DNA of 64,000 bases. Origin: Bretschneidera sinensis (Eukaryota; Streptophyta; Magnoliopsida; Brassicales; Akaniaceae). A model generated the notes under the pieces. It saw only the letters and a list, made by a program, of their open reading frames with translations. It did no database searches and was not told the DNA's origin. This document shows positions 1,556-63,834 of the stretch, in pieces (position 1 is the stretch's first letter; each line of letters opens with the position of its first letter). A program made the translations under genes and the position numbers. The stretch covers positions 30,130,001 to 30,194,000 of the forward strand of contig CM043700.1 in assembly GCA_023935145.1 (NCBI GenBank), written 5' to 3'.

Positions 1556-2801
1556 TGTTGTGAGTTTTAATTTACTCGCAAGCGCACGAGTTGTTTGCAA
1601 TATAGCGTTGTGCAAGTGCGAGATCGAATCCACAGGGAATTGTGTTGTGAAATTATATTTTCAATCTAAACTAACTTTATCTTAACCTAGTTTCGAATTG
1701 TGAATGATATTGCAAAAAAAATATAAACTAAACTAAATTGATTTAAAATCTAATAATTAAAAACACTAAGGTTTCCGAATCCACCCCACCGAAGTTAAGC
1801 ATACATGTTCTAAAAATATAGCCTATCAAAACATTCAATGAATCCAACTATAAGACAAAAAACAAAGAATATCCCAACTAAACCAAAAGCACCCAATGTA
1901 TCCGCTTTTAACAAATCACAAAGGGAATCCAATTTAATCGAAAAGCATTCAATGTATCCATCAGATGAAACACAAAGAAAATCCAACAGAAAATTTAAAC
2001 TCAATCAATTATAAGATTAACTCAAATAATTGACAGAACATTTATACTAAAAATTGTCAGATTTGTACAAGCAAATCTGAACTACTACGCCAAACAACGG
2101 CGGGGCTTCATCTTCAACCTTAGCTGAAGAGTCTAGCCACTCATAACTATAAAACTATAATAACAAGTGCTAAACATTTAAACTAAAACAACTGAATATA
2201 AAGAAATAAATAAACAACTTTACATGGGAGAAATTCCACTTGCTGCCGGGCAGCGCTTCCCCTCGTGGTAGCAATGCCTTCGGGATCCACCAGAATGCTA
2301 GCGGACGTCCACTGGTAAACACCAAAGTGGCTTAGGAATTGTACACTGAATTATGAAGCCAGATGGTGCTTATATAGGGGAAGACCCGGAGTAATGTGGC
2401 TTGTAGAAACGATGTGGGATACAGGCCCGTGTGCGCTCGATCGCAGTGTGGTGCGATCGATCGCAGATACGATCGATCGCATGTCTTGTGCGCACGATCT
2501 CATGTGCGCTCGATCGCATGTCTGCTACGATCGATCGCAGATGCACTGAACTTCAAATATTTCGATGTGGGATGTTGACCATGCGCTCGTTCATAGGCAG
2601 GTGCGCTCGATCGCATATCTCGTTCGATCGATCGCAATGTCTCCAGAAGCTTCACATCTCCTGAAATGCTTCATTTTCTCCACAAACCTGTAAAAATACA
2701 CAAAACACAAGAAATACGTAAAATAAAGTGAAATACTACTAACTAAGAGCATAAAAAATATAAGTTAAGGGTCTAAAATATGCAATATTTAAGACTCATC
2801 A
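1556..2801 (-). repeat. E1 3' LTR
   Basis: 1246-bp LTR matching 9742-11004. The TATA box, read on the minus strand as CCTATATAAG, lies at about 2369-2380. Upstream of it in sense is the palindrome array at 2432-2636. Compared with the 5' LTR it lacks one 16-bp motif unit and one A in a poly-A run, which together account for the 17-bp length difference. Confidence 0.93.
2432..2636. repeat. Palindrome array in E1 3' LTR (8 motif copies)
   Basis: Copies of TGCGATCGATCGCA and variants start at 2432, 2452, 2468, 2489, 2505, 2526, 2602 and 2623. The first six alternate 16- and 21-bp spacing after an initial 20, which makes a 37-bp higher-order unit repeated twice. The exact 14-bp palindrome is at 2452-2465. 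The array is GC-rich and CpG-rich in an otherwise AT-rich LTR, and lies about 50-260 bp upstream of the TATA box. Confidence 0.93.
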
Positions 2802-4646: not shown

Positions 4647-7475
4647 TCACAGTCTTTTCCAAATTTGTTTGATCTCGCGATTTGAAATTTCCACTTGACC
4701 ACTCTTCTGTGGGTGATATAGGGTGGCAACTTTGTGCGTGATACAATATTTCTTCATCAACTGCTCAAAGATCTTGTTGCAAAAGTGCTTACCTCCATCA
4801 CTTATGATTGCTCGAGGCGTACCAAAACGAGCAAAAATAGTGTCTTTCAAGAACTGGACCACAACTCTGTGGTCATTGGTCTTGCACGCAACGGCCTCCA
4901 CCCACTTGGACAGATAGTCCACAACAACTAGAATGTATAAGTAGCCAAAGGAGTTTAGGAATGGTCCCATGAAATCAATGCCCCACACATCAAAAATCTC
5001 AACAATCAGAATAGGGTTGAGGGGCATCATATTTCTCCTAGAAAGACTCCCTAGCTTTTGGCAACACTCACAAGATATACAGTAGGTGTGAGAGTTCCGG
5101 CACAGGGTAGGCCAATAAAATCCACACTGCAAAATCTTTGCAGCGGTCTTTTTAGCACTAAAATGGCCTCCACATGCATGATCATGACAAAAGGCGATGA
5201 CATTAGATTGGTCATGCTCAGGAATACACCGTCTAATGATCTGATAAGGACAATACTTGAACAGGTAAGGATCATCCCAGAAAAAGTGTTTTACCATGGC
5301 CAAAAATTTTGATTTATTTTGCCTCCCCCAATGCAAGGGCATGTGTCCAGTGACAAGATAGTTCACTATGTCAGCAAACCATGGTGCGGGACTGTGAACA
5401 ATGTGCATCAATTGCTCATCAGGAAAGGTCTCAAAAATGGGAATGGCAGCCTCACTGAATTCCACAATTAATCTAGACAAATGGTCCGCCACCACATTTT
5501 CCGAACCTTTCTTATCCCGAATCTCAATGTCGAACTCTTGAAGTAGCAAGATCCATCGGATAAGACGAGATTTAGCATCTTTTTTAGAGAAAAGATACTT
5601 CAATGCAGCATGGTCCGAGTAGATAATGACTTTAGATTCTAACAAGTAGGATCTGAACTTGTCTAATGCAAAAACGATTGCAAGCAACTCCTTCTCAGTG
5701 GTAGAATAATTGAGTTGTGCGTCGTTTAGAGTTCGACTTGCATAATAGATAGCATGGGGAAGTTTATCAACACGTTGCCTCAAAACAGTTCCAACAGCAT
5801 AGTCTGATGCGTCACACATAATCTCAAAAGGCACATCCCAGTTAGGTGGCTGAATAATGGGTGTGGACGTCAGAATTTTCTTCAGATCCCCAAATGCTTT
5901 CTTACAATCCTCATCAAATAGAAATGGGGCATCTTTTTGCAACAACTTGCACAAGGGCCTGGCGATCTTGCTGAAATTCTGGATAAATCGCCTATAGAAA
6001 CCTGCTTGGCCCAGAAAAGATCGAACCTCTTTCACCGTACGTGGGGATGGAAGGCTGAAAATCAAATCCACCTTCGCTTTGTCGGCCTCAATCCCTCGAT
6101 GAGATACGATATGCCCCAGTACAATTCCTTGCTTAACCATAAAATGGCACTTCTCCCAATTAAGCACCAGGTTCTTCTCCTTGCATCGTACCAAAACCAA
6201 AGAGAGACGGTGCAGGCACTCCTCAAATGTTGAACCGAAGATGGAGAAGTCGTCCATGAAAATCTCCAAGAACCGCTCTACCATGTCAGAGAATATACTG
6301 ACCATGCACCGCTGAAAAGTGGCGGGTGCATTGCATAACCCAAAGGGCATGCGACGGTAGGCGAAGGTCCCAAAAGGACAGGTAAATGTCGTCTTCTCCT
6401 GATCTTCGGGGTCCACGGGGACCTGGTTATATCCAGAATAACCATCCAAAAAGTAATAATACTCGTGCCCAGCCAAACGCTCCACCATCTGATCAATAAA
6501 TGGAGGTGGAAAGTGATCCTTCCTTGTGGCAATGTTCAGCTTACGGTAGTCTATACACATTCTCCACCCAGACTGCACACGAGTTGGCACCAACTCGTCG
6601 TCCTTATTCTTTACTACCGTTAACCCAGCTCGCTTGGGCACGATATGAATGGGGCTCACCCACTTGCTATCAGAGATGGGATAAATGATCCCTGCATCTA
6701 ACAGCTTAATAACCTCTGCTCTCACAACCTCTTGTATAGCAGGGTTGAGCCTTCTTTGCGGCTCCCTCGATGGCTTAGCATCTTCCTCCAAGTGTATCCT
6801 GTGCATCACCACCGAGGGGCTGATTCCCTTAATATCCTCAATGGTCCAGCCGATAGCTTCCTTGTGCTCTCTTAAAATATCTAATAATTTCTCCTCTTGA
6901 GCTTCTCCCAAATTTGAAGCTATTATCACAGGCAAACAGTGTGCTGGACCCAGGAACTTATACTTAAGATTATCCGGTAAAGGCTTAAGTTCCTTCTTTT
7001 GAGGTTCTGGTGACACCTTCTCCTCCTCCTCTTTGCTTTCTTGAGGATCAGACTCTAAAATGGCATTTACTTCCTCGAGTAACTTATCTAAACCCAAGTC
7101 CTCTCCAAAGTGAGCAAAGCATGCCTCCATGGGATCCTCAATGCTTGATTCATCCACAGTATCCTCAAGAATCTCCTCTATCAAGCATACATCTCTCATT
7201 TCATCATATTCCAATGGTTGCCTAGTGATATCAAAAATGTTCAACTCCACTGTCATATTTCCGAAGGAGATCTTCATTACCCCTGTCCTACAATTGATTA
7301 GGGCGTTAGCCGTGGCTAAGAATGGTCGCCCTAGAATCACCGGTATTTGAATCCCTACATTCTGAACCGACTCTGTGTCAAGCACAATAAAATCCACGGG
7401 GAAATAGAACTTATCCACTTTTATCAAAACGTCCTCAACTATCCCCCGTGGTCTTTTCACTGACCTGTCAGCCAA
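4647..7475 (-). CDS. pol: E1 pol: protease C-terminus, RT, RNase H, integrase
   Basis: Open frame of 942 codons encoding the replication enzymes. In order: protease end with ILGRPF (about residue 50), an acidic linker, RT with [31 protein letters not shown] and the FMDD catalytic box (about 404), RNase H with [10 protein letters not shown] (about 555) and [10 protein letters not shown], then integrase with a His/Cys zinc region (HDHACGGHF to CISCECC, about 760-805). The integrase core shows Asp in GIDFMGPF (about 832), Asp in [10 protein letters not shown] (about 892) and Glu in [11 protein letters not shown] (about 930). All key catalytic residues are visible. The frame opens just after a TAA within protease; TTG at 7475 is only the first codon after that stop, not a proven start. 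It ends at TGA after a 1-nt frameshift. Confidence 0.93.
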
Positions 7476-8783
7476 TTAAAGTGTCGTGGATGTGGGCTTC
7501 AATTCTCCTAACCCCAACTGCACATAGACTGAATAGGGTAGAAGATTCACACTCGCCCCTAGATCCAAAAGGACCCTCTCAATATGGCTGACTCCTATCG
7601 TGCAAGAGATGGTAGGACACCCCAGGTCCTTATACTTGATGGGTAGCTTGCACTGAAGGATTGAACTGACTTGCTCGATAAAAAATGCCTTCTTTGGGAC
7701 ATTTGTCCTCCTCTTGATAGTGACCAAGTCCTTTAAAAACTTGGCATATGATGGCACTTGATGGATGGCATCCAAAAATGGGATATTGATTTGGACTTGC
7801 TTGAATACCTCCAGAATTTCCTCATACTTCCCTCCTTTCTTGGGCGCCTGTAATCTCTCGGGGTAGGGCGCTCTAGGTACAAACGACCTAGGAGGGTCTT
7901 TCTCAGTAGGTGTGGCTGTAGATGGCTTAGCATCCCTCTTCTCTATGTTGCCACTCCCTGGCCCTTGCTGCATAGCAGGGCTCTCTTCCACTTGATTGTC
8001 CACTTGTCTCCCAGACCTCAGTGTGACAATCACCTGTACTTGTTCCTCCCCGTGCGTAGGAGTTGATGAACTCTCAACCATAAATTGTCCTTTTGGGTTT
8101 TGCACGGGCTGACTGGGGAACTTTCCTTTCTCTCTCTCACCCAAGTGACTTGCAATTTGCCTTATTTGACTCTCCAGCTTGGCAATTGCTTGGGTGTTTA
8201 CCATTGTTGCACTCCTCACATCGCTCATATTTTGGCTAGTCGCTTTCATGAATTCCTTAAGGGTATCCTCAAGCGACTGTGAAACTGGCGCTGGTGTTTG
8301 GGTGGGTGCGTGGTAAGCAGGTGAAGGTGCTGGATGGGCAAAACGACCATGATTAGGAATTTGTGGGGCAAATCCGGGAGGATATTGATTTTGAGCATGA
8401 TGAGAGGCTCCTCCCTGATTCATTGGTTGGTTCTGCCTCCATGAAAAATATGGGTGGTTCCGCCACCCTGGATTGTACGTCTCGGAGTACGATCCATTTG
8501 ACTGCCTTCGAAAATCATTAAAAGCATTTACTTGTTCCATAGGATACTTGACACAAGCCGGCATTGATGGGCAATTCTGTGCTAGATGCATGGGACTAGC
8601 ACAGATGGAACAACTTTCAACATTGAATGTGTTGGCAGCATTAATGGATTGGCTCACAGTGAGAGCGTCAATCTTCTTGGTGAGGGCATCTAATTTTATC
8701 CTTAAATCAGTATCCTCCCTGACCTCATAGATGTCTCCCCTCTTAGGAGCACGAATGGACTTATCTCGACAGCTTGAAAAATC
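7476..8783 (-). pseudogene. gag-pro: E1 gag C-terminus and protease N-terminus
   Basis: Open frame in the same phase as the upstream gag and downstream pol. It shows a CCHC knuckle (CSICASPMHLAQNC), the Athila-type gag signature YNPGWRNHPYFSW, a Pro/Gln-rich segment, VTLRSGRQV, and a protease with LDLGASVNLLPYSVY, where DLG replaces the usual DTG/DSG. The frame is bounded by TGA at 8784-8786 (Trp expected, SQQ-WDFSS) and by TAA at 7476-7478. E6 has Gln at the TAA position (TLQLADRS). Both stops are single transitions. Suppression of TAA by readthrough is possible, but siblings show a sense codon there, so decay is likelier. Confidence 0.88.
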
Positions 8784-9575
8784 TCACTGCTGTGAGTTGT
8801 CGGACAACTTGTCCAACGCCATGTATGCCTCGTCTCCTGTCAGACTCAAGAATGCCCCCCCATTCATAGACTCGATCATGCTACGGTTGGGTTGAGTTAA
8901 CCCTTGGTAGAAGAATTGAACGAGTCTCCACTTCTCATATCCATGTGGAGGGCATCTGATCAGTAACTCTTTAAAGCACTCCCAGCTTTCAGAGAACTTC
9001 TCATCCTCGTCCTGAGTGAAAGAGCTAATCTCCTTACGGCACTCATTCACTCTAGACATTGGGAAAAACTTATGGTAAAATTTGCTAAGCAGGTTTTCCC
9101 AAGATGTAATAGACCCGGACGTGTTGGAGTCCAACCACGCCCTAGCTCTATCGTGAAGGGAGAAAGGGAAGAGTCGAAGATGGACTGACTCCTCAGAGAA
9201 GTTCTGGAATTTGAATGTAGCACAAATGTCTTTGAACTTCTTCACATGACTATAGGGATTTTCAAGATCTAAGCCATAGAATGAGGGTAGGAGTTGGATA
9301 ACATGTGGCTTCAAATCAAAGTGTGTGGCATTGGTTGGTGGCAACACTATGCAGGAAGATGAGTTAGTCGCAACGGGTGCGAACAAATCCCTAAGGGATG
9401 TAGTGGAGTCCACGTTCCAAGCTCTAGGTTGCTCTACATGTTCAGGATGATTAAAATTTTCTCCCATCTCAGCAGTCTCTCTCTCAACTAGTGCTCTTTT
9501 CTGCCTCCTAAGAGTTCTTTCTAAGTCGGGATCTAAATGTGTCAAATTTAAGTTCAAGGATCTCCGACCAAGCAT
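8784..9575 (-). CDS. gag: E1 gag N-terminal capsid domain
   Basis: 263-residue open frame with the retrotransposon gag (capsid) domain: HVIQLLPSFYGLDLENPYSH (about residue 90), VHLRLFPFSLHDRARAWL (about 140), NLLSKFYHKFFP, CFKELLIRCPPHGYEKW, VQFFYQGL and GDEAYMALDKLSDNSQQ. Capsid assembles the particle in which genomic RNA is reverse transcribed. It begins 166 bases inside the 5' LTR. The first ATG in frame is 9575, but a later Met (about residue 37) is possible. It ends at a premature TGA, from TGG, separating it from the knuckle-bearing half. Confidence 0.9.
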   Translation of the reverse strand: MLGRRSLNLNLTHLDPDLERTLRRQKRALVERETAEMGENFNHPEHVEQPRAWNVDSTTSLRDLFAPVATNSSSCIVLPPTNATHFDLKPHVIQLLPSFYGLDLENPYSHVKKFKDICATFKFQNFSEESVHLRLFPFSLHDRARAWLDSNTSGSITSWENLLSKFYHKFFPMSRVNECRKEISSFTQDEDEKFSESWECFKELLIRCPPHGYEKWRLVQFFYQGLTQPNRSMIESMNGGAFLSLTGDEAYMALDKLSDNSQQ

Positions 9576-9717
9576 ACACCAACAGAAAAATAATGAGATA
9601 CTAATCAGCAGAAGTAACAGAATAAAGCAAACTCAAATTTTTATTTTTATTTTTTTGTAACTAACTAGTAGAAAAATAAAATCAATTCAGACCAAAAATT
9701 TTCACAAACGAAACAAT

Positions 9718-9735
9718 TCCCCGGCAACGGCGCCA
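9718..9735 (-). other. E1 primer-binding site, tRNA-Asp type
   Basis: Minus-strand TGGCGCCGTTGCCGGGGA, 18/18 complementary to the 3' end of plant tRNA-Asp including the CCA. It lies 6 bases inside the 5' LTR end. This PBS is typical of Athila-lineage elements. Confidence 0.92.
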
Positions 9736-9741
9736 AAAACT

Positions 9742-11004
9742 TGTTGTGAGTTTTAATTTACTCGCAAGCGCACGAGTCGTTTGCAATATAGCGTTGTGCA
9801 AGTGCGAGATCGAATCCACTGGGAATTGTGCTGTGAAATTATATTTTCAATCTAAACTAACTTTATCTTAACCTAGTTCCGAATTGTGAATGATATTGCA
9901 AAAAAAAATATAAACTAAACTAAATTGATTTAAAATCTAATAATTAAAAACACTAAGGTTTCCGAATCCACCCCACCGAAGTTAAGCATACATGTTCTAA
10001 AAATATAGCCTATCAAAACATTCAATGAATCCAACTATAAGACAAAAAACAAAGAATATCCCAACTAAACCAAAAGCACCCAATGTATCCGCTTTTAACA
10101 AATCACAAAGGGAATCCAATTTAATCGAAAAGCATTCAATGTATCCATCAGATGAAACACAAAGAAAATCCAATAGAAAATTTAAACTCAATCAATTATA
10201 AGATTAACTCAAATAATTGACAGAACATTTATACTAAAAATTGTCAGATTTGTACAAGCAAATCTGAACTACTACGCCAAACAACGGCGGGGCTTCATCT
10301 TCAACCTTAGCTGAAGAGTCTAGCCACTCATAACTATAAAACTATAATAACAAGTGCTAAACATTTAAACTAAAACAACTGAATATAAAGAAATAAATAA
10401 ACAACTTTACATGGGAGAAATTCCACTTGCTGCCGGGCGGCGCTTCCCCTCATGGTAGCAATGCCTTAGGGATCCACCAGAATGCTAGCGGACGTCCATC
10501 GGTAAACACCAAAGTGGCTTAGGAATTGTACACTGAATTATGAAGCCAGATGGTGCTTATATAGGGGAAGACCCGGAGTAATGTGGCTTGCAGAAACGAT
10601 GTGGGATGCAGGCCCGTGTGCGCTCGATCGCAGTGTGGTGCGATCGATCGCAGATACGATCAATCGCATGTCTTGTGCGCACGATCTCATGTGCGCTCGA
10701 TCGAATGTCTGCTACGATCAATCGCAGATGCACTGAACTTCAAATATTTTGATGTGGGATGTTGACCATGCGCTCGTTCGTAGGCAGGTGTGCTCGAGCG
10801 CAGGTGCACTCGATCGCATATCTCGTGCGATCGATCGCAATGTCTCCAGAAGCTTCACATCTTCTGAAATGCTTCATTTTCTCCACAAACCTGTAAAAAT
10901 ACACAAAACACAAGAAATATGTAAAATAAAGTGAAATACTACTAACTAAGAGCATAAAAAATATAAGTTAAGGGTCTAAAATATGCAATATTTAAGACTC
11001 ATCA
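9742..11004 (-). repeat. E1 5' LTR
   Basis: 1263-bp LTR and promoter of E1. The TATA box (TATATA in a CCTATATAAG context) is at about 10556-10567, so transcription runs leftward. The palindrome array (10619-10839) lies upstream. Several CGATCG cores intact in the 3' LTR read CGATCA here, as expected for CpG decay. Confidence 0.93.
10619..10839. repeat. Palindrome array in E1 5' LTR (9 motif copies)
   Basis: Same array as 2432-2636 plus one extra 16-bp unit, TGTGCTCGAGCGCA with flanking GG, at about 10788-10804. Two cores have decayed to CGATCAATCG. Confidence 0.92.
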
Positions 11005-11791: not shown

Positions 11792-11800
11792 CCAAAAACT

Positions 11801-13146
11801 TGCTGTGCGATTATCCACCTAAATTAATGGGCGAATAATCGCACTCATTTTACTTGCAAGTGCACAAGGTCAACTTAGTAGTATAGTGTGCGAAAGCAAG
11901 ATCATCTCCACAGAGATTGGTGAATTTCGTTTTAGAATTATATTCCTAATGTAAAAAGATAGAAATAATAAAAGAGTTGATTTTGATAAAGATAAAATAA
12001 TAAAGATAAAGGCGTAGGGACTTGATATCCACAACTAATTATGCTACCATAATATATCAGTATGCCAATGCTTTAATCATGCCATGTATACCTAATGTTT
12101 GTCAACCTAAGGGCATGGTATCTACTCCTTAAGCTATTGATCTCCCTAAGCAACGAGTTAGGCATGGTATCTACTCTAAATCTTTTCTCTCTCAAGGGAT
12201 TCAACATGGTGTATGCTGAGTTGTTCCTTAAGAGAGCATAGGATCTGTGAAAATCGACAACCACATGGGACCTAGGGCATGGTATCTACTCCTGGTTTCC
12301 CATGTTGATTAACCCAAGAATCCAGTGTGGATATCTTTTATTACTAATGTCAGACCCAGGACTCGGTCATCCAAATTGATCTAACTAACAAATCTATACC
12401 ACATGCACATATTGATCAGACATATACATATGAGGAATTTAAATAAAAACAAGTATTAATCAAGTTAAACAGCACAACATAAATATCGCAACGACACCAA
12501 TACTAAATTTATTGAGTAAACATAATTAGGGCTTCAACCAAGCCCTACTAAGAATTTAATTACACATAATAAAATAAAAAGGAAAGAAGAAACCCGAAAA
12601 CATTATGGAGAAGAGTCATCAATTCGTCTCCACAATCTCTTCCTTTGGGCTCGTCCGGCCTCCGGCCTCCTGACCTAAAACTAAACTAAAACTAAAAGAA
12701 AATTGAAAGATAAAAGAAGAGATTAGATGATGTCTATTGTGTGTGTTTTACAGGTGTATTTATAGGGGTGAATAATCCTAGAAGGCTCAGGAACCCTAAA
12801 CTTTCCTAAAACATAAAACTTCTTTATTTCTAAAACTGGTTTTGCCGCTTTACTGTTTACACCCGTATATATGCACTCGATCGCACACATAGTGCTCTTG
12901 ATCGCAAGGTTGTGCTCGATCGCTCTTCCTGGTGCGCTCGATCGCACTCCAGACAGTATCTGCTCCAGGTTTTCCAATTTTCTTCCTTTTAAGCTCCAAA
13001 AGCTTCCAAAATTCTTCCTTTTCTTCATAGACCTATAAAAACCATGTAAAACATAGAAATGAAGTAAAATGGACTAAAATAACATAACTAAGGACCTAAC
13101 ACATGTAAATAAGGGGGCTTAAATATGAATATTTAAGCACCTATCA
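11801..13146 (-). repeat. E2 3' LTR
   Basis: 1346-bp LTR, starting TGCTGTGCGATTATCC on the plus strand. The TATA box (CCCTATAAATACA in sense) is at about 12756-12768. Downstream of TATA in sense the motif GAGTAGATACCATGC is repeated. It is 40 bp longer than the 5' LTR because it carries two additional palindrome units. Confidence 0.92.
12872..12946. repeat. Palindrome array in E2 3' LTR (4 copies)
   Basis: Motifs at 12872-12885 (TGCACTCGATCGCA), about 12892-12906, about 12912-12925 and 12933-12946 (TGCGCTCGATCGCA). The middle two are absent from the 5' LTR. Confidence 0.9.
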
Positions 13147-15467: not shown

Positions 15468-15546
15468 TGCACTCGAGCGCACCCTGAACTGCGCTCAATC
15501 GCACTGGGCTTGCGATCGATCACACCAAGTAGTGCACTCGATCGCA
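15468..15546. repeat. Palindrome array in E2 gag leader
   Basis: Motif variants TGCACTCGAGCGCA (15468-15481), TGCGCTCAATCGCA, TGCGATCGATCACA and TGCACTCGATCGCA (15533-15546), between the PBS and gag. A sense-strand pyrimidine tract ending in CAG (15576-15578) lies just upstream. Confidence 0.88.
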
Positions 15547-15729: not shown

Positions 15730-17035
15730 TGTTGAACGATTATCCACCTAAATTAATGGGCGAATAATCGCACTCGTTTTACTTGCAAGTGCACAAGGTC
15801 AACTTAGTAGTATAGTGTGCAAAAGCAAGATCATCTCCACAGGGATTGGTGAATTTCGTTTTAAAATTATATTCGTAATGTAAAAAGATAGAAATAATAA
15901 AAGAGTTGATTGTGATAAAGATAAAATAATAAAGATAAAGGCATAGGGACTTGATATCCACCACTAATTATGCTACCATAATATATCAGTATGCCAATGT
16001 TTTAATCATGCCATATATACCTAATGTTTGTCAACCTAAGGGCATGGTATCTACTCCTTAAGCTATTGATCTCCCTAAGCAACGAGTTAGGCATGGTATC
16101 TACTCTAATTCTTTTCTCTCTCAAGGGATTCAACGTGGTGTATGCTGAGTTGTTCCTTAAGAGAGCATAGGATCTGTGGAAATCGACAACCACACGGGAC
16201 CTAGAGCATGGTATCTACTTCTAGTTTCCCATGTTGATTAACCCAAGAATCCGGTGTGGATATCTTTTGTTACTAATGTCAGACCCAGGACTCGGTCATC
16301 CAAATTGATCTAACTAACAAGTCCATACCACATGCACATATTGATCAGACATATACATATGAGAAATTTAAATAAAAGCAAGTATTACTCAAGTTAAGCA
16401 ACACAACATAAATATCGCAACGACGCCAATACTAAATTTATTGAGTAAACATAATTAGGGCTTCAACCAAGCCCTACTAAGATTTTAATTACACATAATA
16501 AAATAAAAAGGAAAGAAGAAACCCGAAAACATTATGGAGAAGAGTCGTCAATTCGTTTCCACAATCTCTTCCTTCGGGCTCGTCCGGCCTCTGGCTTCCC
16601 GACCTAAAAGTAAACTAAAACTAAAAGAAAATTGAAAGATAAAAGAAGGGATTAGATGATGCCCATTATATGTGTTTTACAGGTGTATTTATAGGGGTGA
16701 ATAATCCTAGAAGGCTCAGGAACCCTAAACTTTCCTAAAACATAAAACTCCTTTATTTCCAAAACTGGTTCTGCCGCTTTACTATTCACGCCCGTACATA
16801 TGCGCTCGATCGCACATGTAGTGCGCTCGATCGCACTCCAGACAATATCTGCTCCAGGTTTTCCAGTTTTCTTCCTTTTAAGCTCCAAAAGCTTCCAAAA
16901 TGCTTCCTTTTCTTCATAGACCTATAAAAACCATGTAAAACACAAAAATGAAGTAAAATGGACTAAAATAACATAACTAAGGACCTAACACATGTAAATA
17001 AGGGGGCTTGAATATGAATATTTAAGCACCTATCA
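15730..17035 (-). repeat. E2 5' LTR
   Basis: 1306-bp promoter LTR; TATA at about 16684-16696. Only two palindrome copies are present, at 16801-16814 and 16822-16835. The start reads TGTTGAACG where the 3' LTR has TGCTGTGCG. Confidence 0.92.
16801..16835. repeat. Palindrome array in E2 5' LTR (2 copies)
   Basis: Two TGCGCTCGATCGCA copies 21 bp apart, matching the first and last copies of the four in the 3' LTR. Confidence 0.9.
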
Positions 17036-17126: not shown

Positions 17127-18415
17127 TGATAAATGCTTAAATAGTCATATTTAAGCCCCTTAATTTACACTTGTTAGGCTCTTTGTTTATCTATTTTAGT
17201 AGATTCTACTTCATTTTTGTGTTTTCTGTGTTTTTCATAGGTCTTTGAAGAAAAGAAGACATTTTAGAGCTCTAAGGAATAAAAAGTAAAGATTTGTAAA
17301 CCAGCAAGGTGCACTCAAGCGCACGTCTCTTGTGATCGAGCGCATAGGCACTTGAGTGCACACTTAAAAGGCTCGAGCGCACACATGCACTTGAGCGCAG
17401 ACCCATGTGATAGAGCTCACATGCACAGAGAGGCGGTAGAGCCGGGTTTGGAAAGAAGTCTCCAGGTCTTATTTTGGATTTTAGGGTTTCTAAGGTTTCT
17501 TAAACCTTATAAATAGGCTTGTAAACATAGAAAGAAGGGTTGTTAGTTTTAGGTTAGGTTTAGTTTTACTTTTAATCTTCTCCTTGGAGAGGGAGGTTGG
17601 AAGGGTGGAAGCTTTGGGAGATGAATTGGCGACTCTTCTCTCGGGTTTCTTCTTTCCTTTATTTTAGCATGCGTAACTAAACCCTAGTAAGGGCTTGGTT
17701 GAAACCTTAATTATATTTAACCAATAATTCAGCATTGGTGCCTTTGCAATATTCATGCTATGATTCTTAATTTGATTAATGCCTGTTTTTATTTAAATTC
17801 CTCATATGTGTGTGTCTGATCAACGTATGCATGTGGTATGGATTAGTTAGTTGAATCAATTTAGATGACCGAGTCTTGGGTTCAACAATAGTTACAAAAG
17901 ATATCCACGTCGGATTCTTGGGTTAATTAACATGGGAAACCGGGAGCGGACCAAGTCTTAGGTCTCGTGTGGTTGTCGATTTCCACAGACCTTATGCTCT
18001 CTTAAAGAACAACTCAGTATACACCATGCTGAATCCTTTAAGAGAGAAAAGAGTTAGAGTATACACCATGCCTAACTTGCATAGGGAAATCAATAGCCTA
18101 AGGAGCGGACCAAGCCCTTAGGTTGACAACCAGCAGGTATTCATAGCATGAGTAGAGCATTGGTGTATTGTTTTGTTGGGGTAGCATGACTAGTGATGGA
18201 TACCAAGTCCCTACACCTCTATCATTTTTATTAATCTAGACTTAATATTTATTTCTATCTATTTTTACTTTATGAACTTAATTCTAAATCAAAATTCATC
18301 AATACCTGTGGAAATGATCTCGCACTTGCACACTATGCTACTGTAGACCTTGTGCACTTGCAAGTAAAACTATACGATTATTTGCTTATTTATTTAGGTA
18401 GATAAACGCACAACA
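17127..18415 (+). repeat. E3 5' LTR
   Basis: 1289-bp LTR starting TGATAAATGC and ending CACAACA. TATA box CTTATAAATAGG at about 17505-17517, followed by the repeated CCATGC motifs. The palindrome array sits at 17310-17420. Confidence 0.92.
17310..17420. repeat. Palindrome array in E3 5' LTR
   Basis: Degenerate motif copies such as TGCACTCAAGCGCA, TGTGATCGAGCGCA, GGCTCGAGCGCA and TGCACTTGAGCGCA. It has about one unit (roughly 18 bp) more than the 3' LTR array at 28243-28336. Confidence 0.87.
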
Positions 18416-18439: not shown

Positions 18440-18901
18440 TTGTACTAAATTTCTATTTAGAATTCCTTTCGTTAATTTTATTATTTTGTTTTGTTTTGTT
18501 TTGTTTTATTATTTATTTATGCTTCATTCAATATTTAATTTATTTCTTCTTGTTTTTTATGTTTTTCCCTTTTTGTTCTAATTTTTTTCTTCTGTTTTTC
18601 TGTTTCAGGTGTGCATCAGTGCTGTTTCTGAATGCATTGCAATTGAGTGCAAGGTAAGGTGCGATCGAGTGTAGACGTGCGATCGAGCACTGTTCTTGGT
18701 GCGCTCGAGCGCAAAACATCCAGCAACTACCCAAATTGCAGTACTGATGATGCTGCACTAAAGCGTTTGAACTGATTCATACAAGGTTTTCGATCCAGGT
18801 ATCAAAACATCTTTCTAATCGATACTGGACTTGAGTGGACTATTCGACAGAGACCTAGAAACAACATTGGGGAGGAAGAAGAAGAAATAGAGGGAGAACC
18901 A
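18440..18901 (+). other. E3 gag leader
   Basis: AT-rich leader. A pyrimidine-rich tract ends in TTTCTGTTTCAG at 18608, followed by GTGTGCATC, which looks like a 3' splice site. Palindrome copies TGCAATTGAGTGCA to TGCGCTCGAGCGCA follow at 18638-18713. No clear matching 5' splice site is seen. Confidence 0.55.
18638..18713. repeat. Palindrome array in E3 gag leader
   Basis: Four degenerate copies, the last (18700-18713) TGCGCTCGAGCGCA, between the putative splice acceptor and gag. Confidence 0.85.
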
Positions 18902-22076: not shown

Positions 22077-23320
22077 TGTTGTGCGATAATATACCTAAAT
22101 AAATAGGTGAATGATTGGACTTTGTTTTACTTGCAAGTGCATAAGGTCAATAGTGTAGTATAGTGTGCGAATGCAAGATCATCTCCACAGGGATTGGTAA
22201 AGTTCAATTTAGAATTATATTCGCAATATAAAAAGATAGAAATAATAAAAGCGTTGAGAAATAATAAAGATAAAATACTAAGGATAAAGGCGTAGGGACT
22301 TGATATCCACCACTAATTATGCTACCCCAATATAACAGTATGCCAATGCTCTTAAGCTATTGATTTCCCTAAGCAACGAGTTAGGCATGGTATCTACTCT
22401 AACTCTTTTCTTCCTTAAGGGATTCAGCATGGTATCTACTTGAGTTGTTCCTTAAGAAAACATAAGTACTATGGAAATCGACAACCACATGAGACCTAGG
22501 GCATGGTATCTACTCCTAGTTTCCCATGTTGATTAACCCGGGTATCCGGATAAGATATCCCTTGTTACTAATGTTAGACCCAGGACTCGGTCATCCAAAT
22601 TGATCTAACTAACAAGTCCATACCACATGCACATATTGATCAGACATATACATATGAGGAATTTAAATAAAAGCAGGTATTAATCAAGTTTAAGCAACAC
22701 AACATAAATATCGCAAGGTGCCAATACTAAATTTATTGAGTAAACATAATTAGGGCTTCAACCAAGCCCTACTAAGAATTTAATTACACATAATAAAATA
22801 AAAAGGAAAGAAGAAACCCGAGAGAAGAGTCGTCAATTCCGCTCCACGGTCTCCTTCTCCAAGCTAAAGCAAAAGATAAAAGAATGGATCTAAGAAGTGA
22901 TCCCCCCAAGAGGTGATGCCTTTTGTGTATGATTTAAAAGTTTATTTATAGGTCTTTGAGAAGTCTTAATCCGCTCATGAATTCCTAAACTTTCCTAAAA
23001 CGCAAAACTTCTTTATTTCCAAAATAGAGTTATTTCCAAAACAGGGTTCTGCAGTTTACTGTTCACGCCCGTACATGTGCGCTCGATCGCAATGCTGCGC
23101 TCGATCACACAGAAGAGTGCACTCGATCGCAGTTTAGCCAGCAGCTGCTCTAGGATTTCCAGATTTATTCCTTTAAGTGCCAAAAATGCTTCTTTTTCTC
23201 AAAGACCCTAGAAAAACGTGTAAAACACAAAAGTGAAGTAAAATAGACTAAAACATATAGATAAAGAACTTAACAACTGTAAATTAAGGGGCTTAAATAT
23301 GAATATTTAAGCTCCTATCA
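22077..23320 (-). repeat. E4 3' LTR
   Basis: 1244 bp; TATA (CCTATAAATAAAC in sense) at about 22940-22952. Near 22350 it lacks about 53 bp present in the 5' LTR. It also has one palindrome unit fewer. Confidence 0.92.
23078..23131. repeat. Palindrome array in E4 3' LTR (3 copies)
   Basis: TGCGCTCGATCGCA (23078-23091), TGCGCTCGATCACA and TGCACTCGATCGCA (about 23118-23131). Confidence 0.9.
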
Positions 23321-26478: not shown

Positions 26479-26554
26479 TGCGATCGAGGGCTCTAAGCAC
26501 TGCACTCGATCGCACCAGTGCGCTTGATCACACTTAGGTTTGCGCTCGATCGCA
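26479..26554. repeat. Palindrome array in E4 gag leader
   Basis: Motifs TGCGATCGAGGGC, TGCACTCGATCGCA, GTGCGCTTGATCACA and TGCGCTCGATCGCA, 66-141 bases upstream of the gag ATG. A sense tract CTTTCTGTTTCAG ends at 26581, upstream of the array. Confidence 0.88.
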
Positions 26555-26775: not shown

Positions 26776-28094
26776 TGTTGTGCGATAATATACCTAAATA
26801 AATAGGTGAATGATCGGACTTTGTTTTACTTGCAAGTGCACAAGGTCAACAGTGTAGTATAGTGTGCGAATGCAAGATCATCTCCACAGGGATTGGTAAA
26901 GTTCAATTTAGAATTATATTTGCAATATAAAAAGATAGAAATAATAAAAGCGTGAGAAATAATAAAGATAAAATACTAAGGATAAAGGCGTAGAGACTTG
27001 ATATCCACCACTAATTATGCTACCCCAATATAACAGTATGCCAATGCTTTATTCATGCCATGTATACCTACTGGTTGCCAACCTAAGGGCATGGTATCTA
27101 CTCCTTAAGCTATTGATTTCCCTAAGCAACGAGTTAGGCATGGTATCTACTCTAACTCTTTTCTTCCTTAAGGGATTCAGCATGGTATCTGCTTGAGTTG
27201 TTCCTTAAGAAAACATAAGTACTATGGAAATCGACAACCACATGAGACCTAGGGCATGGTATCTACTCCCGATTTCCCATGTTGATTAACCCGGGTATCC
27301 GGATAAGATATCCCTTGTTACTAATGTTAGACTCAGGACTCGGTCATCCAAATTGATCTAACTAACAAGTTCATACCACATGCACATATTGATCAGACAT
27401 ATACATATGAGGAATTTAAATAAAAGCAGGTATTAATCAAGTTTAAGCAACACAACATAAATATCGCAAGGCGCCAATACTAAATTTATTGAGTAAATAT
27501 AATTAGGGCTTCAACCAAGCCCTGCTAAGAATTTAATTACACATAATAAAATAAAAAGGAAAGAAGAAACCCGAGAGAAGAGTCATCAATTCCGCTCCAC
27601 GGTCTCCTTCTCCAAGCTAAAGCAAAAGATAAAATAATGGATCTAAGAAGTGATCCCCCCAAGAGGTGATGCCTTTTGTGTGTGATTTACAAGTGTATTT
27701 ATAGGTCTTTGAGAAGTCCTAATCGGCTCATGAGTTCCTAAACTTTCCTAAAACGCAAAACTTCTTTATTTCCAAAATAGGGTTATTTCCAAAACAGGGT
27801 TATGCAGTTTACTGTTCACGCCCGTACATGTGCGCTTGATCGCATATGTGGTGCGCTCGATTGCAATGCTGCGCTCGATCACACAGAAGAGTGCGCTCGA
27901 TCGCAATTTAGCCAGCAGCTGCTCTAGGATTTCCAGATTTATTCCTTTAAGTGCCAAAAATGCTTCTTTTTCTCCAAGACCCTATAAAAACGTGTAAAAC
28001 ACAAAAGTGAAGTAAAATAGACTAAAACATATAGATAAAGAACTTAACAAATGTAAATTAAGGGGCTTAAATATGAATATTTAAGCTCTTATCA
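26776..28094 (-). repeat. E4 5' LTR
   Basis: 1319-bp promoter LTR; TATA (CCTATAAATACAC in sense) at about 27693-27705. Palindromes at 27831-27905. Its right end abuts the resumed E3 LTR. Confidence 0.92.
27831..27905. repeat. Palindrome array in E4 5' LTR (4 copies)
   Basis: TGCGCTTGATCGCA, TGCGCTCGATTGCA, TGCGCTCGATCACA and TGCGCTCGATCGCA; one unit of about 22 bp more than the 3' LTR. Confidence 0.9.
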
Positions 28095-29332
28095 AATTTA
28101 CACTTGTTAGGCTATTTGTTTATCTATTTTAGTAGATTCTACTTCATTTTTATGTTTTCTGTGTTTTTCATAGGTCTTTGAAGAAAAGAAGACATTTTGG
28201 AGCTCTAAGGAATAAAAAGTGAAGATCTGCAAACCAGAAAGGTGCGCTCGAGCGCACCTCTTTCGTGATCGAGCGCACAGGCACTCGAGTGCACACTTAG
28301 AAGGCTCGAGCACGGAGCCATGTGATCGAGCGCACATGCACAGAGAGGCGGCAGAGCCAGTTTTGGAAAGAAGTCTCCAGGTCTTATTTTGGAAATTAGG
28401 GTTTCTAGGGTTTCCTAAACCTTATAAATAGGCTTGTAAACACAAAAAGAAGGGTAGTTAGTTTTAGGTTAGGTTTAGTTTTACTTTTAATCTTCTCTTT
28501 GGAGAGGGTAGCCGGAAGGGTGGAAGCTTTGGGAGACAAATTGATGACTCTTCTCTTGTGTTTTTTCTTTCCTTTATTTTAGCATGTGTAACTAAACCCT
28601 AGTAAGGGCTTGATTGAAAGCCTAATTATGTTTAACCAATAATTCAGTATTGGTGCCTTTGCAATATTTATGCTTTGATTCTTGATTTGATTAATGCCTG
28701 TTTTTATTTAAATTCCTCATATGTGTATGTCTGATCAACGTATGCATGTGGTATAGATTAGTTAGTTGAATCAATTTGGATGACCGAGTCCTGGGTTCAA
28801 CAATAGTAACAAAAGATATCCACACTGGATTCTTGGGTTAATCAACATGGGAAACCGAGAGCGGACCAAGTCCTAGGTCTCGTGTGGTTGTCGATTTCCA
28901 CAGACCTTATGCTCTCTTAAGGAACAACTTAGTATAAACCATGTTGAATCCCTTAAGAGAGAAAAGAGTTAGAGTATACACCATACCTAACTCATTGCAT
29001 AGGGAAATCAATAGCCTAAGGAGCGGACCAAGCCCTTAGGTTGACAACCAGTAGGTATTCATAGCATGAGTAGAGCATTGGCATATTGTTTTGTTGGGTA
29101 GCATGATTAGTGGTGGATACCAAGTCCCTACGCCTTTATCGTTATTATTAATCTAGACTCAATATTTATTTCTATCTATTTTTACTTTGTGAAATTAATT
29201 CTAAATTGAATTTCACAAATCTCTGTGGAAATGATCTCGCACTTGCACACTATGCTACTGTAAACCTTGTGCACTTGTAAGTAAAACTGTACGATTATTT
29301 GCTTATTTATTTAGGTAGATAAACGCACAATA
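28095..29332 (+). repeat. E3 3' LTR, remainder
   Basis: AATTT (28095-28099) is E4's right TSD. From 28100 the sequence matches the 5' LTR of E3 to its end at 29332. TATA at about 28420-28432, array at 28243-28336 with cores better preserved (TGCGCTCGAGCGCA) than in the 5' LTR. Confidence 0.92.
28243..28336. repeat. Palindrome array in E3 3' LTR
   Basis: TGCGCTCGAGCGCA, TGATCGAGCGCA, GGCACTCGAGTGCA and TGTGATCGAGCGCA. Confidence 0.88.
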
Positions 29333-30550: not shown

Positions 30551-32043
30551 TGATGAGAGTCATAAAATGCATCTAAACAGTACTTAATAGTTAGCATTTT
30601 AGAGTTGATCGAGGTTGGAATTACACTTTTATACCTTAATAACTCTAAAGTGTTATTCTTAAATCGTTGACTTATTTCAGTGCATTTTCAGGTACATTGA
30701 GCTTAAAAAAGAGATAGAAAATCTATCATCATTTTAAACACGAAGCTTCAATGAATACTCGAGTGAGATAATGGTCGCGGAAGAGCCAAGATGAAGAGAA
30801 ACCAAGAAAGGAGATTTACTAAATTGCCAGAATTGCCCATACAGATCAATCATCTTTGAAAATTAAACTCTATTGATGCAAGAAGAACCAGGCAATGAGC
30901 CATATATACTTAGAAAGATCCAGAAGTCTATTTTCTGGAGAATTTTACGGTTTGTAAAAATTATTTTTCTAGAGAAAGTTATGGCAGTTTTAGTAGACAA
31001 AGGTCAGGCTGTAGGGGATTTCAGCTTGAAGGGCATGTGAAGGCTTAAATCCCACATCCCACATCGGTTAGAAACACATTTCTATATCCCACATCCCACA
31101 TCGGATTGAAAACACATTGCACTCCTGGTATTTCCCTATAAAAGGCCTACTCCACTTCAGCTTTGAGGCATCAATCGGAGCTCATCTGAAATCATTAGAG
31201 AGTGAATCCAGAGGGCCTTTAGGAGCAATCCAGAGGGCCTTTAGGACGAATCCGAAGTATGATTTTGGAGGACAAGCTGAAGAATTGCCAAAACTTTCGC
31301 TACCAAGGAGGAGATGATCGTTGAGAGGCCGGAGGCAACTTAAGGAAGCATGAGCTCCATGGCCGGCTAGTCTCCAAGTAAGGCGAAGGGATGAATCCCT
31401 AGGTGTAGATGTTCTTATTTTCCTTTATTTGATTCAGTTGTAGTTTGGTATTATTTTCATTAAATATTGTTATGTTTTATTCTTTAATTTAATTAGTAGA
31501 TTTTTATTAGTACGGTGATTGCATGCTTCTTTTCCATATAAGTCTAGTCATGCTCTTCTTATGTGTATTTGTTTGGGTGTGATTGAGTCCAGTAGATCTC
31601 TTTTATAGATTTTTCCATTGTTGCGGTATTGTCATTTAGATATATTGTCATCTTTTGATAATTTATAAGTTAGGTCATGTGTGCTTGAAAGTAAAGAATA
31701 ATTCATATCAATTACATTAGGGTTTATACATGCGCTTTAATTGAATATTTGCCGATTTCCTGTTTGGGATGTGAAACTTGCAATCGAGATAAAAATAATT
31801 GAATCATGTTAGGATTAGGGCAATGAACCTAGGGAAGATTTCCATAACGTTGTTGTTTCTTTATTATACTATCCATCAATTATTTACACAATTTCCATAC
31901 AATTAACAAATCAGATTTTGTCACTTTAACTTTTATCGTTTGTGTTGAGATTCATACCTTCTTTTGTAATTAACTTGTTTCCCTATGGAATCGACAACCC
32001 AAAACTGTACTACAACTACCGTGTTATGTTTTGGGCGTAATCA
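30551..32043 (+). repeat. E5 5' LTR
   Basis: 1493 bp; TATA box CTATAAAAGG at about 31137-31146. Just upstream are two tandem 37-bp repeats (31049-31085, 31086-31122) containing ATCCCACATCCCACATCGG. Downstream, GAATCCAGAGGGCCTTTAGG is duplicated (31204-31248); the 3' LTR has it once. Confidence 0.92.
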
Positions 32044-32048
32044 AATTT

Positions 32049-32066
32049 TGGCGCCGTTGCCGGGGA
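32049..32066 (+). other. E5 primer-binding site, tRNA-Asp type
   Basis: TGGCGCCGTTGCCGGGGA, full match, five bases after the LTR. Confidence 0.93.
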
Positions 32067-32258
32067 AACGCACTTAGGTACAAGGAAGATTGTCAACTTT
32101 TGACATGACGATAGAAGAACTGTAAATAGTTTTTCTTTTCAGCAGTTTGTAAAGGCGATAACTTCATTCCCTCTTTTAGCTTGCTGCATTAATTTTATTT
32201 TATTTTATCTTATTCTTTCTCTTTATAGTAAATTTTTTTCATTATTTTGTTACCTTGA

Positions 32259-39466: not shown

Positions 39467-39577
39467 TGCGATCGATCGCACTACTGCACGCGATTGAACG
39501 CACATGCGATCGTTCGTACACATGAAGGATTGAGCGCAGCACTGCGATCAAGTGCAAGACGTATGCGATCGAGCGCA
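39467..39577. repeat. Palindrome array in E6 5' LTR
   Basis: Exact palindrome TGCGATCGATCGCA at 39467-39480, then GCGATTGAACGCA (the unit absent from the 3' LTR), TGCGATCGTTCG, GGATTGAGCGCA, TGCGATCAAGTGCA and TGCGATCGAGCGCA. Confidence 0.92.
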
Positions 39578-40785: not shown

Positions 40786-40821
40786 TGCAATCAATCGCAA
40801 CCTTCTGTGCGATCGAGCGCA
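40786..40821. repeat. Palindrome pair in E6 gag leader
   Basis: TGCAATCAATCGCA (40786-40799) and TGCGATCGAGCGCA (40808-40821), about 70 bases before ATG 40888. A CTGTTTTAG acceptor-like sequence ends at 40749. Confidence 0.88.
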
Positions 40822-43612: not shown

Positions 43613-43727
43613 TGCGATCGATCGCAACATTCAAAGAGATCGAGTGCAAGAGTGCGATCGAGCGCACCAGTCAATGTGCTCAAGCGCACAAGTGCGATTG
43701 AGCGCACTCCGTGTGCGATCGAGCACA
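43613..43727. repeat. Palindrome array between protease and ORF3 of E6
   Basis: Exact TGCGATCGATCGCA at 43613-43626, followed by AGATCGAGTGCA, TGCGATCGAGCGCA, TGCTCAAGCGCA, TGCGATTGAGCGCA and TGCGATCGAGCACA at roughly 20-bp spacing. Confidence 0.9.
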
Positions 43728-44168
43728 CTTATGGTAGAAGGTTTAGCTATAAGTCTAAAAATTTTTACTCACTCTCTTCACTGTTCACTCGCACTCTCCC
43801 ATTACAATCCACCTATCATTTCACTCACTCGCACTCTGCCACCACTCCCCATCACCACTATCATCCACCATCACCACCATCACCACTCCCCATCACCACA
43901 GTCATCCACCATCACCACCATCACCAACCATTACCGCCACATACAACTTCCCCATTCCACATCCCCTCCACTACACAAGGTACCCATTTTTTTGTTTACA
44001 CGCACGGATTTTTCGTGTTTTAGTATAAACTTCCTATATATAACTTATCTTGTGAATGATTGGGTGCTATTTTTCTACTTGCAGGAGGTTAGGAACGAAT
44101 TCAAATCCTCAATACCAGAGCTTGGTTTTTTGGTGCACACCATCTGTTCGAGGAAATGCCTGATTGTG

Positions 44169-46736: not shown

Positions 46737-48052
46737 TGATAGGTGCTTAAATATTCATATTTAAGCCCCCTTATTTACACTTGTTAGGTCCTTAGTTATG
46801 TTAATTTAGTTCATTTTACTTCATTTGTGTGTTTCACATGTGTTTATAGGTTTTGGAGAAAAAAGAAGTAGTTTTGGCACAAAAGGGAATAAGCCTGAAA
46901 ATCCTGGAGCAGCTTCTGGTCAAAGTGCGATCGATCGCACTACTGCATGCGATCGTTCACACACATGAAGGATCGAGCGCAGCACTGTGATTGAGCGCAA
47001 GACGCATGCAATCGAGCGCACATATACGGGCGTGAACAGTAAACTACGGAACTCTATTTTGGAAATAAAGGAGTTTTGTGTTTTAGGAAAGTTTGGGAAT
47101 TCATAAGCCTTCTAGGACCACTCAAGCCCTATAAATACACTTGTAAAGCACACTCAAATCATCACAACTTAGAGAACACTTCTCTTATCTTTTACTTGGA
47201 GTTGTAAGCTTTAGGAGAGAATTGACGCCTTTTCTCTCGGGTTTATTCTTCTCTTTATGTTTAGTTTATATATGATGTTTATCTTAGATAGCATGTGTAA
47301 CTAACTTTCTTATAGGGCTCGATTGAAGCCCTAGTTATGCTTTCTCATATATTTATTCATTGATAAAATCTTTACCAACAACCTTTATTATGTTGCTTAA
47401 CTTGATTAATGTCTGTGCTTATTTAAATTCCTCATATGTATGTGTATGGCCAATGTATGCATGTGGTATGGATTGGTTAGTTAGATCAATTTGGATGACT
47501 GAGTCCTAAGTCTAACATTAGTAACAAAAGATATCCACAACGGATTCTTGGATTAATCAACATGGGAAATCGGGAGTAGATACCATGCTCTATGTCTCAT
47601 GTGGTTTTCGATTTTCATAAATCTTATATTTTCTTAAGGAACAACTCATGCAGACACCATGCTGAATCCCTTAAGGTAGAAAAGAGTTAGAGTAGATACC
47701 ATGCCTAACTCGTTGCTTAGGGAAATCAATAGCTTAAGGAGTAGATACCATGCCCTTAGGTTGGCGACCATTAGGTATACATGATAAGGCTAGTGCACTG
47801 ATACATTCTACAATTGGGAAAGTATGACTAGTGGTGGATATCCAAGCCCTATGTCTTTATTATTATCAAATCACATTCAACAGTTATTTATTTCTTTTTT
47901 CTTTGAAGAAACTAATTCTAAAACTGAATTTACCAATCCCTATGGAGATGATCTTGCTTTCGCACACTATACTACACTGTTGACCTTGTGCACTTGCAAG
48001 TAAAATGAGTGCGATTATTTGCTTATTAATTTAGGTGGATAAATGCACAACA
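46737..48052 (+). repeat. E6 3' LTR
   Basis: 1316 bp; TATA at about 47129-47139; palindrome array 46926-47020. It starts TGATAGGTGC where the 5' LTR has TGATAAGTAC. Confidence 0.93.
46926..47020. repeat. Palindrome array in E6 3' LTR
   Basis: TGCGATCGATCGCA (46926-46939), TGCGATCGTTCACA, GGATCGAGCGCA, TGTGATTGAGCGCA and TGCAATCGAGCGCA; one 16-bp unit fewer than the 5' LTR. Confidence 0.92.
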
Positions 48053-54987: not shown

Positions 54988-55029
54988 AGGATCAACTCTA
55001 GGATATTAAGCCTAAAATAAGAGCATCTT

Positions 55030-58193: not shown

Positions 58194-58194
58194 G

Positions 58195-58206: not shown

Positions 58207-58208
58207 AA

Positions 58209-62514: not shown

Positions 62515-63834
62515 TGATAGATGCTTAAATATTCATATTTAAGTCCCCTTATTTACATTTGTTAGGTCTTTAATTACGTTAATTTGGTCTCTTTTACTCC
62601 ATTTGTGTGTTTTACATGTTTTTATAGGGTTTTGGAGAAAACGAAGCAGTTTTGGCACTTAAAGGAAGAAATCTGGAATCCTTGGAGCATTCTCTCGATA
62701 AATTGCGATCGATCACGCCATACAATGCGATCGAGCGCACATTGCGATCGTGCACACACATGAAGGATCGAGCGCAAGACATATGCGATCGAACGCACAT
62801 GTACAGGCGTGAACAGTAAACTGCATAACCCTATTTTAGAAATAAGAGAGTTTTCATTATAGGAAGGTTTAGGAACTCATGGGTCTCTTAGGACTTCTCA
62901 AAGACTTATAAATACACTTGTAACTCACACACATAAGAGACCTCAGATAGAAAACACTTTTCTCTTTTCTTTTACTTGGAGTTGAGAGCTTGGGAGAGAA
63001 TTGACGCCTCTTCTCTCAGGTTTATTCTTCTCTTTTAATTTTTAGTTTATTTATAATGTTTACTTCAGATAGCATGTGTAACTAACTTTCTTATAGGGCT
63101 CGATTAAAGCCCTAGTTATGCATTCCCATATTTATATTCATTGATAAAATCTTTGCCAATAGCTTTTATTATGTTACTTAACTTGATTAATGTCTGTGAT
63201 TATTTAAATTCCTCATATGTATGTGTAAGGCCAATGTATGCATGTGGTATGGATAGGTTAGTTAGATCAATTTGGATGACCGAGTCCTGGGTCTAACATT
63301 AGTAACAAGGGATATCTTATCCGGATACCCGGGTTAATCAACATGGGAAACCAGGAGTAGATATCATGCCATAGGTCTCATGTGGTTGTCGATTTCCATA
63401 GTACTTATGTTTTCTTAAGGAACAACTCAAGCAGATATCATGCTGAATCCCTTAAGGAAGAAAAGAGTTAGAGTAGATACCATGCCTAACTCGTTGCTTA
63501 GGGAAATGAATAGCTTAAGGAGTAGATACCATGCCCTTAGGTTGGCAACCAGCAGGTATACATAATAAGGCTAGTGCACTGATACTTTATACAAATTGGG
63601 AAAGTATGACTAGTGGTGGATATTAAAGCCCTATGTCTTTATTATTATCAAATCACCTTCCAACAGTTATTTATCTCTTTTTACTTTAGAGAAACTGATT
63701 CTAAAAGCAAATTTACCAATCCCTGTGGAGATGACCTTGCTTTTGCACACTAGACTACACTGATGACATTGTGCACTTGCAAGTATAACTAGTACGATTA
63801 TTCACCTATAATTTAGGTAGATATTCGCTCAACA
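62515..63834 (+). repeat. Solo LTR of the E6 family
   Basis: 1320-bp LTR (TGATAGATGC to CTCAACA) closely resembling the E6 LTRs, with flanks GTAAG (62510-62514) and ATAAG (63835-63839), a TSD with one mismatch. TATA at about 62905-62916. No internal sequence is attached, so it probably arose by recombination between the two LTRs of one insertion. Confidence 0.9.
62704..62797. repeat. Palindrome array in the solo LTR
   Basis: TGCGATCGATCACG, TGCGATCGAGCGCA, TGCGATCGTGCACA, GGATCGAGCGCA and TGCGATCGAACGCA, about 110-210 bp upstream of the TATA box. Confidence 0.9.

Follow-up and report, generated by a model that had tools for sequence, protein, structure and literature searches.

A palindromic U3 array with unit-sized, mostly loss-type differences between sister LTRs in a Ty3/gypsy retrotransposon family

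LTR elements of the window

Self-comparison and edge inspection of the window, the whole stretch of 64,000 nucleotides analyzed here, revealed a nest of LTR elements. One family accounts for 11 LTRs, which belong to the two-LTR elements E1, E2, E3, E4, and E6 and to the solo LTR E7; the element E5 is unrelated. LTR pairs were re-delimited by their target-site duplications (TSDs), which are 5 bp long (CATCT in E1, GTCAT in E2, GTGAC in E3, AATTT in E4, and ACAAA in E6), and were then aligned. The 3′ LTR of E3 is interrupted by the insertion of E4, and the last LTR bases of E3 are altered. The coordinates of all features are listed in Table 1.

In E1, the one element in which the domain order could be read, gag is followed by reverse transcriptase (RT), RNase H, and integrase, which is the Ty3/gypsy order. 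The ORF list of the window contains no ORF longer than 300 aa in E2, E3, E4, or E6. By their 5-bp TSDs and this domain order, the palindrome-array elements are Ty3/gypsy LTR retrotransposons. The LTR edges carry the primer site TGGCGCCGTTGCCGGGG, which we take to be of the tRNA-Asp type, and a polypurine tract; together, these two features look presumably Athila-like. The Athila ORF-1 domain PF03078 had no match in the frames scanned; according to the available part of PMC6317226, it is present in only 16% of Athila elements.

Two further observations concern the structure of the nest. At the outer end of the E2 3′ LTR (11792-11800), 9 extra bases lie between the TSD GTCAT and the usual LTR end. 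They match sequence that adjoins the primer site and runs into it, which looks like the integration of an untrimmed cDNA end; a similar extension is found in the genomic copy L007. In the region 49093-60016, several direct repeats, with pieces 88 to 95% identical, surround a gag-like frame and a Tf2-1-like SH3-domain frame; this region is perhaps another LTR element or two.

Table 1. Positions of the elements, arrays, and related features in the window.
Feature	Position	Strand	Remarks
E1 5′ LTR	9742..11004	(-)	TSD CATCT, 1263 bp
E1 3′ LTR	1556..2801	(-)	TSD CATCT, 1246 bp
E1 gag-pol region	4647..9575	(-)	ORFs and domain matches
E1 gag ORF	8784-9575	(-)	
E1 middle ORF	7476-8657	(-)	without Pfam match above cut-off
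E1 RT, RNase H, integrase ORF	4647-7475	(-)	
U3 palindrome array, E1 5′ LTR	10615..10843	(-)	10 units
16-bp unit absent from E1 3′ LTR	10798..10813	(-)	placement slides by 5 bp
TATA-like box downstream of E1 5′ LTR array	10556..10563	(-)	consensus match only
U3 palindrome array, E1 3′ LTR	2428..2640	(-)	9 units, one lost
Array, E2 5′ LTR	16801..16835	(-)	two units
Array, E2 3′ LTR	12872..12946	(-)	40-bp 12896-12935 absent from E2 5′ LTR
Array, E3 5′ LTR	17310..17419	(+)	17375-17392 absent from E3 3′ LTR
Array, E3 3′ LTR	28243..28334	(+)	LTR split by E4
Array, E4 5′ LTR	27831..27905	(-)	27845-27865 absent from E4 3′ LTR
Array, E4 3′ LTR	23078..23131	(-)	
Array, E6 5′ LTR	39467..39577	(+)	39487-39502 absent from E6 3′ LTR
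Array, E6 3′ LTR	46926..47020	(+)	
E7 solo LTR	62515-63834	(+)	
Array, E7 solo LTR	62704..62797	(+)	
Leader palindrome clusters	15468-15546, 18660-18713, 26479-26554, 40786-40821		E2, E3, E4, E6

The palindromic U3 array

Each LTR of the family contains, within U3, an array that begins 166 to 201 bp after the LTR start. The array unit is an imperfect 14-bp palindrome, TGCG[A/C]TCGA[G/T]CGCA, and units are mostly spaced by 16 to 22 bp. Their number is highest in E1, with 10 units in the 5′ LTR and 9 in the 3′ LTR, and ranges from two to six in the other elements. Matches to at least 12 of the 14 motif positions occur 70 times in the window, all within elements of this family, compared with 0.05 expected under a first-order Markov model; this abundance is not chance. 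The array of E1 is rich in CpG dinucleotides, with an observed/expected ratio of 1.69 compared with 0.87 for the remaining LTR sequence and a window-wide value of 0.52, and as a single strand it folds better than 200 of 200 shuffled sequences (z = −4.0). A TATA-like box, recognized as a consensus match only, follows in all 11 window LTRs, about 55 to 130 bp past the last unit. From its position, the array is most likely the upstream promoter (enhancer) region of the element.

The palindrome also occurs elsewhere in the elements. A second, smaller cluster is located in the leader of E2, E3, E4, and E6, roughly 180 to 300 bp downstream of the 5′ LTR; in the leader of E1, no site reaches 12 matching positions out of 14. 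In addition, the interior of E6 (43613-44227) contains eight further motif copies, about 2.5 to 3.1 kb before the 3′ LTR, which recall the internal copies of Sirevirus motifs.

Array differences between sister LTRs

An earlier sequence-only reading of the window had proposed that the sister LTRs of one element differ by about whole palindrome units. Pairwise LTR alignment bore this out for all five two-LTR elements, each of which has one unit-sized indel within the array. E1 has a 16-bp array gap; the 17-bp length difference had been attributed to one unit plus one A, and its remaining 1 bp reflects a run of unequal length that lies about 900 bp from the array gap within this LTR. The unit had been placed at 10788-10804, which covers the neighboring unit (10789-10802) in the same 16-bp register; the gap itself aligns best at 10798-10813 and can be shifted by 5 bp without loss of exact matching. 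The single gaps of 40 bp in E2 and 16 bp in E6 correspond to two units and one unit, as had been read, and the one-unit differences estimated at about 18 bp in E3 and 22 bp in E4 align as 18 and 21 bp. The array is longer in the 5′ LTR in four of the window pairs and in the 3′ LTR in E2.

The rest of each LTR pair had been described as highly similar. Beyond the 1-bp difference in E1, E3 has gaps of 1 and 3 bp outside the array, with 1230 bp of its interrupted 3′ LTR compared. The description is incomplete for E4, which has a 55-bp and a 1-bp gap outside its array. Among window gaps of at least 10 bp, five of six fall within 632 array bases, compared with 5878 bases outside, which is a 46-fold excess (p = 5e-5).

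Extension to the genome

The comparison was then extended to the 1.21-Gb genome of the plant from which the window derives. As query we used window positions 9580-10280, which exclude the array, so that array length did not steer the choice of copies, and the best 40 of 3576 candidate 5′ LTR regions were taken; the sample thus consists of the copies closest to E1 and is not a random draw. Both ends were retrieved for 33 of the 39 non-window matches, and 26 of these gave usable sister pairs, which together with the five window pairs make 31. Seven pairs were left out, five (L070, L081, L082, L094, and L064) lacking an LTR at the expected place and two (L090 and L066) matching only from mid-array; L090 does contain an LTR start with a shortened array, so its omitted pair could have counted. 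An earlier genome search with an array-containing query favors copies of equal array length and was therefore left out of the rate estimates. The E1 subfamily comprises 27 of the 31 pairs, and the remaining four are E2, E3, E4, and E6.

Indels of at least 10 bp are present in the array in 23 of the 31 pairs and outside it in three, a result that was unchanged under four alignment settings. Per base, this amounts to 29 indels in 6490 array bases versus 3 in 27,566 bases outside, a 41-fold excess (p = 3.6e-18). The 26 non-window pairs alone repeat the excess found in the window, with 24 gaps in 5858 array bases versus 2 in 21,688 outside (44-fold, p = 1.5e-14). Unit count is altered in 28 of the 29 array events, and 16 of the 35 array gaps of any size are exactly 16 bp long; adjoining gaps in one LTR were counted separately, and some may represent one complex event. 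The gaps show no bias between the two sister LTRs (15 versus 18, p = 0.73). The data support the claim that whole-unit changes accumulate in the array at a far higher rate than changes elsewhere in the LTR, and the unit-sized indels between sister LTRs are real and well supported.

Direction of change

The changes were polarized by using the remaining elements of the respective subfamily as a reference for each event. Between LTR positions 140 and 420 of the E1 subfamily, 26 events could be polarized, of which 24 are losses and 2 are gains. When an 18-bp loss in L060 that falls outside the array boundary is set aside, the array proper has 23 losses versus 2 gains (p = 2e-5). An independent criterion points the same way: Both gains are 100% identical to the neighboring unit, and lost stretches are at most 94% identical to theirs, often far less. 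For the older subfamily (the pairs of E2, E3, E4, and E6), in which only five elements can be compared, two losses, one called gain, and one undecided event were scored; the called gain, in E6, is only 69% like its neighbor unit. The sequence-only reading had also pictured an array that gains or loses units like a minisatellite, and this two-way picture does not match the counts in the E1 subfamily. Array change is best read as loss-biased decay rather than as two-way minisatellite change.

One unit is lost repeatedly. Of the 27 E1-subfamily pairs, 10 have lost the 16-bp unit near LTR position 192 (189-198 in single LTRs) from one sister only; the affected sister is the 5′ LTR in six pairs and the 3′ LTR in four. 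In L034/L072 and L045/L083 it is missing from both LTRs, which indicates that shortened arrays are apparently heritable by transposition.

Timing of the events

In the E1 subfamily, pairs with an array event have a median divergence of 1.67%, compared with 0.73% for pairs without (one-sided p = 0.009), and the number of events is correlated with divergence (rank correlation 0.40, p = 0.037). Because the event-bearing pairs are older, most array losses probably follow insertion. Over all 31 pairs, an event of at least 10 bp is found in 2 of 6 pairs below 1% divergence, compared with 21 of the 25 more diverged pairs (one-sided p = 0.026), and the correlation is weak (0.32, p = 0.08). Here, a clock model has a slightly poorer fit than a model in which the event number per pair is constant (log-likelihood −40.7 versus −38.3), with the order reversed in the E1 subfamily (constant −34.3 versus clock −32.8); over all pairs, the two models do not separate clearly. 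Only a single event is seen in each of the three most diverged pairs, but their arrays are shorter.

These data bear on the view that insertions are born with unequal LTRs, owing to slippage of RT on the array during synthesis of the second LTR. Tandem repeats do slip in reverse transcription, and two young pairs are already unequal: L059/L097 (0.28% divergence outside the array) has a 16-bp gain and L057/L095 (0.64%) has two 16-bp losses. The constant-number model, moreover, is not rejected over the 31 pairs. Four of the six pairs below 1% divergence nevertheless have no array indel, and in the E1 subfamily events track age, which leaves reverse-transcription slippage disfavored and, in our judgment, unlikely.

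The pace of array change can be approximated from the E1 subfamily, which shows about 73 array gaps of at least 4 bp per unit LTR divergence per pair. Plant LTRs accumulate substitutions at a rate near 1.3e-8 per site per year; on this scale, the array undergoes roughly one event per million years.

Molecular signatures and source of the losses

The breakpoints of the 27 non-gain array events have a mean exact homology of 5.5 bp, compared with 1.7 bp for random placement in the same arrays. Homology of at least 5 bp is present in 14 of these 27 events (13% expected) and none in 7 (48% expected). This excess fits slippage or single-strand annealing between neighboring units for most events. Substitutions are also 1.6 times denser inside the array, with CpG-type changes accounting for 101 of 189 there versus 104 of 557 outside, and non-CpG divergence in the 23 event pairs is equal in the two compartments (1.78% in the array versus 1.93% outside, p = 0.57). 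The array is thus prone to CpG decay and deletion and not to general point mutation, and its CpG decay suggests methylation.

The same equality speaks against ectopic gene conversion or recombination with family members, which could bring arrays of other length into one LTR. Potential donors are abundant, with thousands of related copies in the genome (3,628 first-look candidates in the array-based search), and a published survey (PMC7251063) predicts conversion for roughly one in four LTR pairs of plants. Within the array, the sister LTR is the nearest relative (or tied) in only 34 of 54 cases, compared with 50 of 54 outside; when five blocks of the same size (245 alignment columns) are taken from outside the array, however, the count ranges from 30 to 51 of 54, so the lower array value may reflect lack of resolution. 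Individual candidates exist: The L057 array is nearer to other elements than to its sister, with many substitutions, and the 5′ LTRs of L039 and L057 have an identical pair of 16-bp losses that is absent from their intact sister LTRs. Imported tracts should raise non-CpG divergence in the array, and no such rise is seen, so that the main cause probably lies elsewhere than in gene conversion. We have set it aside as the main source and rate it as decidedly improbable in that role, although L057 may still be a case. Least probable is that assembly collapse or consensus error in the repeat produced false unit differences, since E1-subfamily arrays of 158-281 bp lie far below long-read length and error should not track LTR divergence, whereas the youngest pair, L040/L078, is identical (0 of 990 sites differ), four of the six youngest pairs have equal arrays, and older pairs mostly differ.

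We regard it as likely that an upstream promoter array decays by homology-guided deletion after insertion. According to this model, a cluster of imperfect palindromes in U3, upstream of the TATA-like box, would act as the promoter/enhancer region of the element. After insertion, each LTR would lose whole units, mostly by deletions guided by homology between neighboring units; replication slippage and single-strand annealing, the presumed pathways, would be expected to leave such deletions. Hairpin formation may perhaps assist deletion, and gains by tandem duplication would occur rarely. As a consequence of such unit loss in each LTR, sister LTRs would drift apart in unit number with age. Copy-to-copy variation in promoter strength, as proposed in the sequence-only reading, would be a putative further effect.

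Implications

LTR pairs are natural twins that are identical at birth, so that the loss and gain of regulatory-looking repeats can be counted directly, and the sister-LTR counts show a strong loss bias at a promoter-side array. They also call for caution in element dating by LTR comparisons that count gap length. A more far-reaching idea, which we consider quite unlikely, is that the CpG-dense palindromic array is a built-in wear point: Each inserted copy would slowly disarm itself by one-directional unit loss, and longer arrays would be renewed by selection in transposing lineages. Symmetrical methylated CpG clusters might then be nicked in demethylation repair, or hairpins might stall replication. 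If true, unit number would offer a second clock, one that records both the age of an element and the loss of its promoter.

Comparison with known systems

Among the titles and partial abstracts of the literature matches listed, none deals with the loss of units from palindrome arrays of sister LTRs. The array shares with hypervariable minisatellites that its length changes by whole units, as in the 28 unit-changing events described above. Gains and losses are both common in minisatellites, which is not matched by the 23 losses and 2 gains of the E1 subfamily. Classical hypervariable minisatellites also change far faster, at a very high rate per generation, whereas divergence scaling suggests a low rate for the array.

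A parallel is found within the window. The LTR pair of the unrelated element E5 (30551-37034), which is 5.5% diverged, differs by a 22-bp unit of its own two-copy repeat and by 9 bp. E5 has the one-unit difference between sister LTRs in common with the array family, at a different repeat and in one event only. Palindromy may therefore not be needed, and this single event suggests that tandem repeats in LTRs are generally subject to unit-sized indels.

The BII boxes of the retrotransposon Tnt1 are arranged in tandem and vary in number. They bind defence-induced factors, as stated as known in the available part of PMC3316501, and have their nature as short boxes and their U3 location in common with the array. 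Tnt1 belongs to another family and has another motif, and its boxes are described with protein binding (PMC3316501), unlike the array here.

Palindrome clusters with strong predicted secondary structure are also described for the LTRs of maize Sireviruses, where they lie in the cis-regulatory region (PMC10760457, in part) and are targets of small RNAs (Bousios et al, 2016, via PMC10760457). The same text states that repeat arrays are common in cis-regulatory regions of transposable elements and that maize Ty3 elements are generally without an obvious structural peak.

The closest resemblance is to the Ty1/copia Sireviruses themselves. Their palindromic repeated motifs, called Sirevirus-specific among the elements surveyed, form clusters in the 5′-most half of the LTR, where they precede the TATA box and adjoin CpG islands, and also occur internally (Bousios et al, 2010; PMC2829016, available part, in which unit loss between sister LTRs is not treated). 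The family described here likewise has many short palindromes in U3 upstream of a TATA box, here consensus-based, and more copies inside the element. Tnd-1, with the motif ACAATCGATTGT (PMC2829016, Table 3), shares the ATCGAT center with the array. Unlike Sireviruses, the family has the Ty3/gypsy domain order instead of that of Ty1/copia, and its core is [A/C]TCGA[G/T], the CGG-CCG core, to which Tnd-1 is the published exception (PMC2829016), being absent. Lacking both the copia order and this core, the array family is not a member of the Sireviruses, yet it looks built in the same way as their palindrome design. Palindromic U3 arrays like those of Sireviruses are thus also present in a family of Ty3/gypsy elements, and this would suggest that the design arose more than once.
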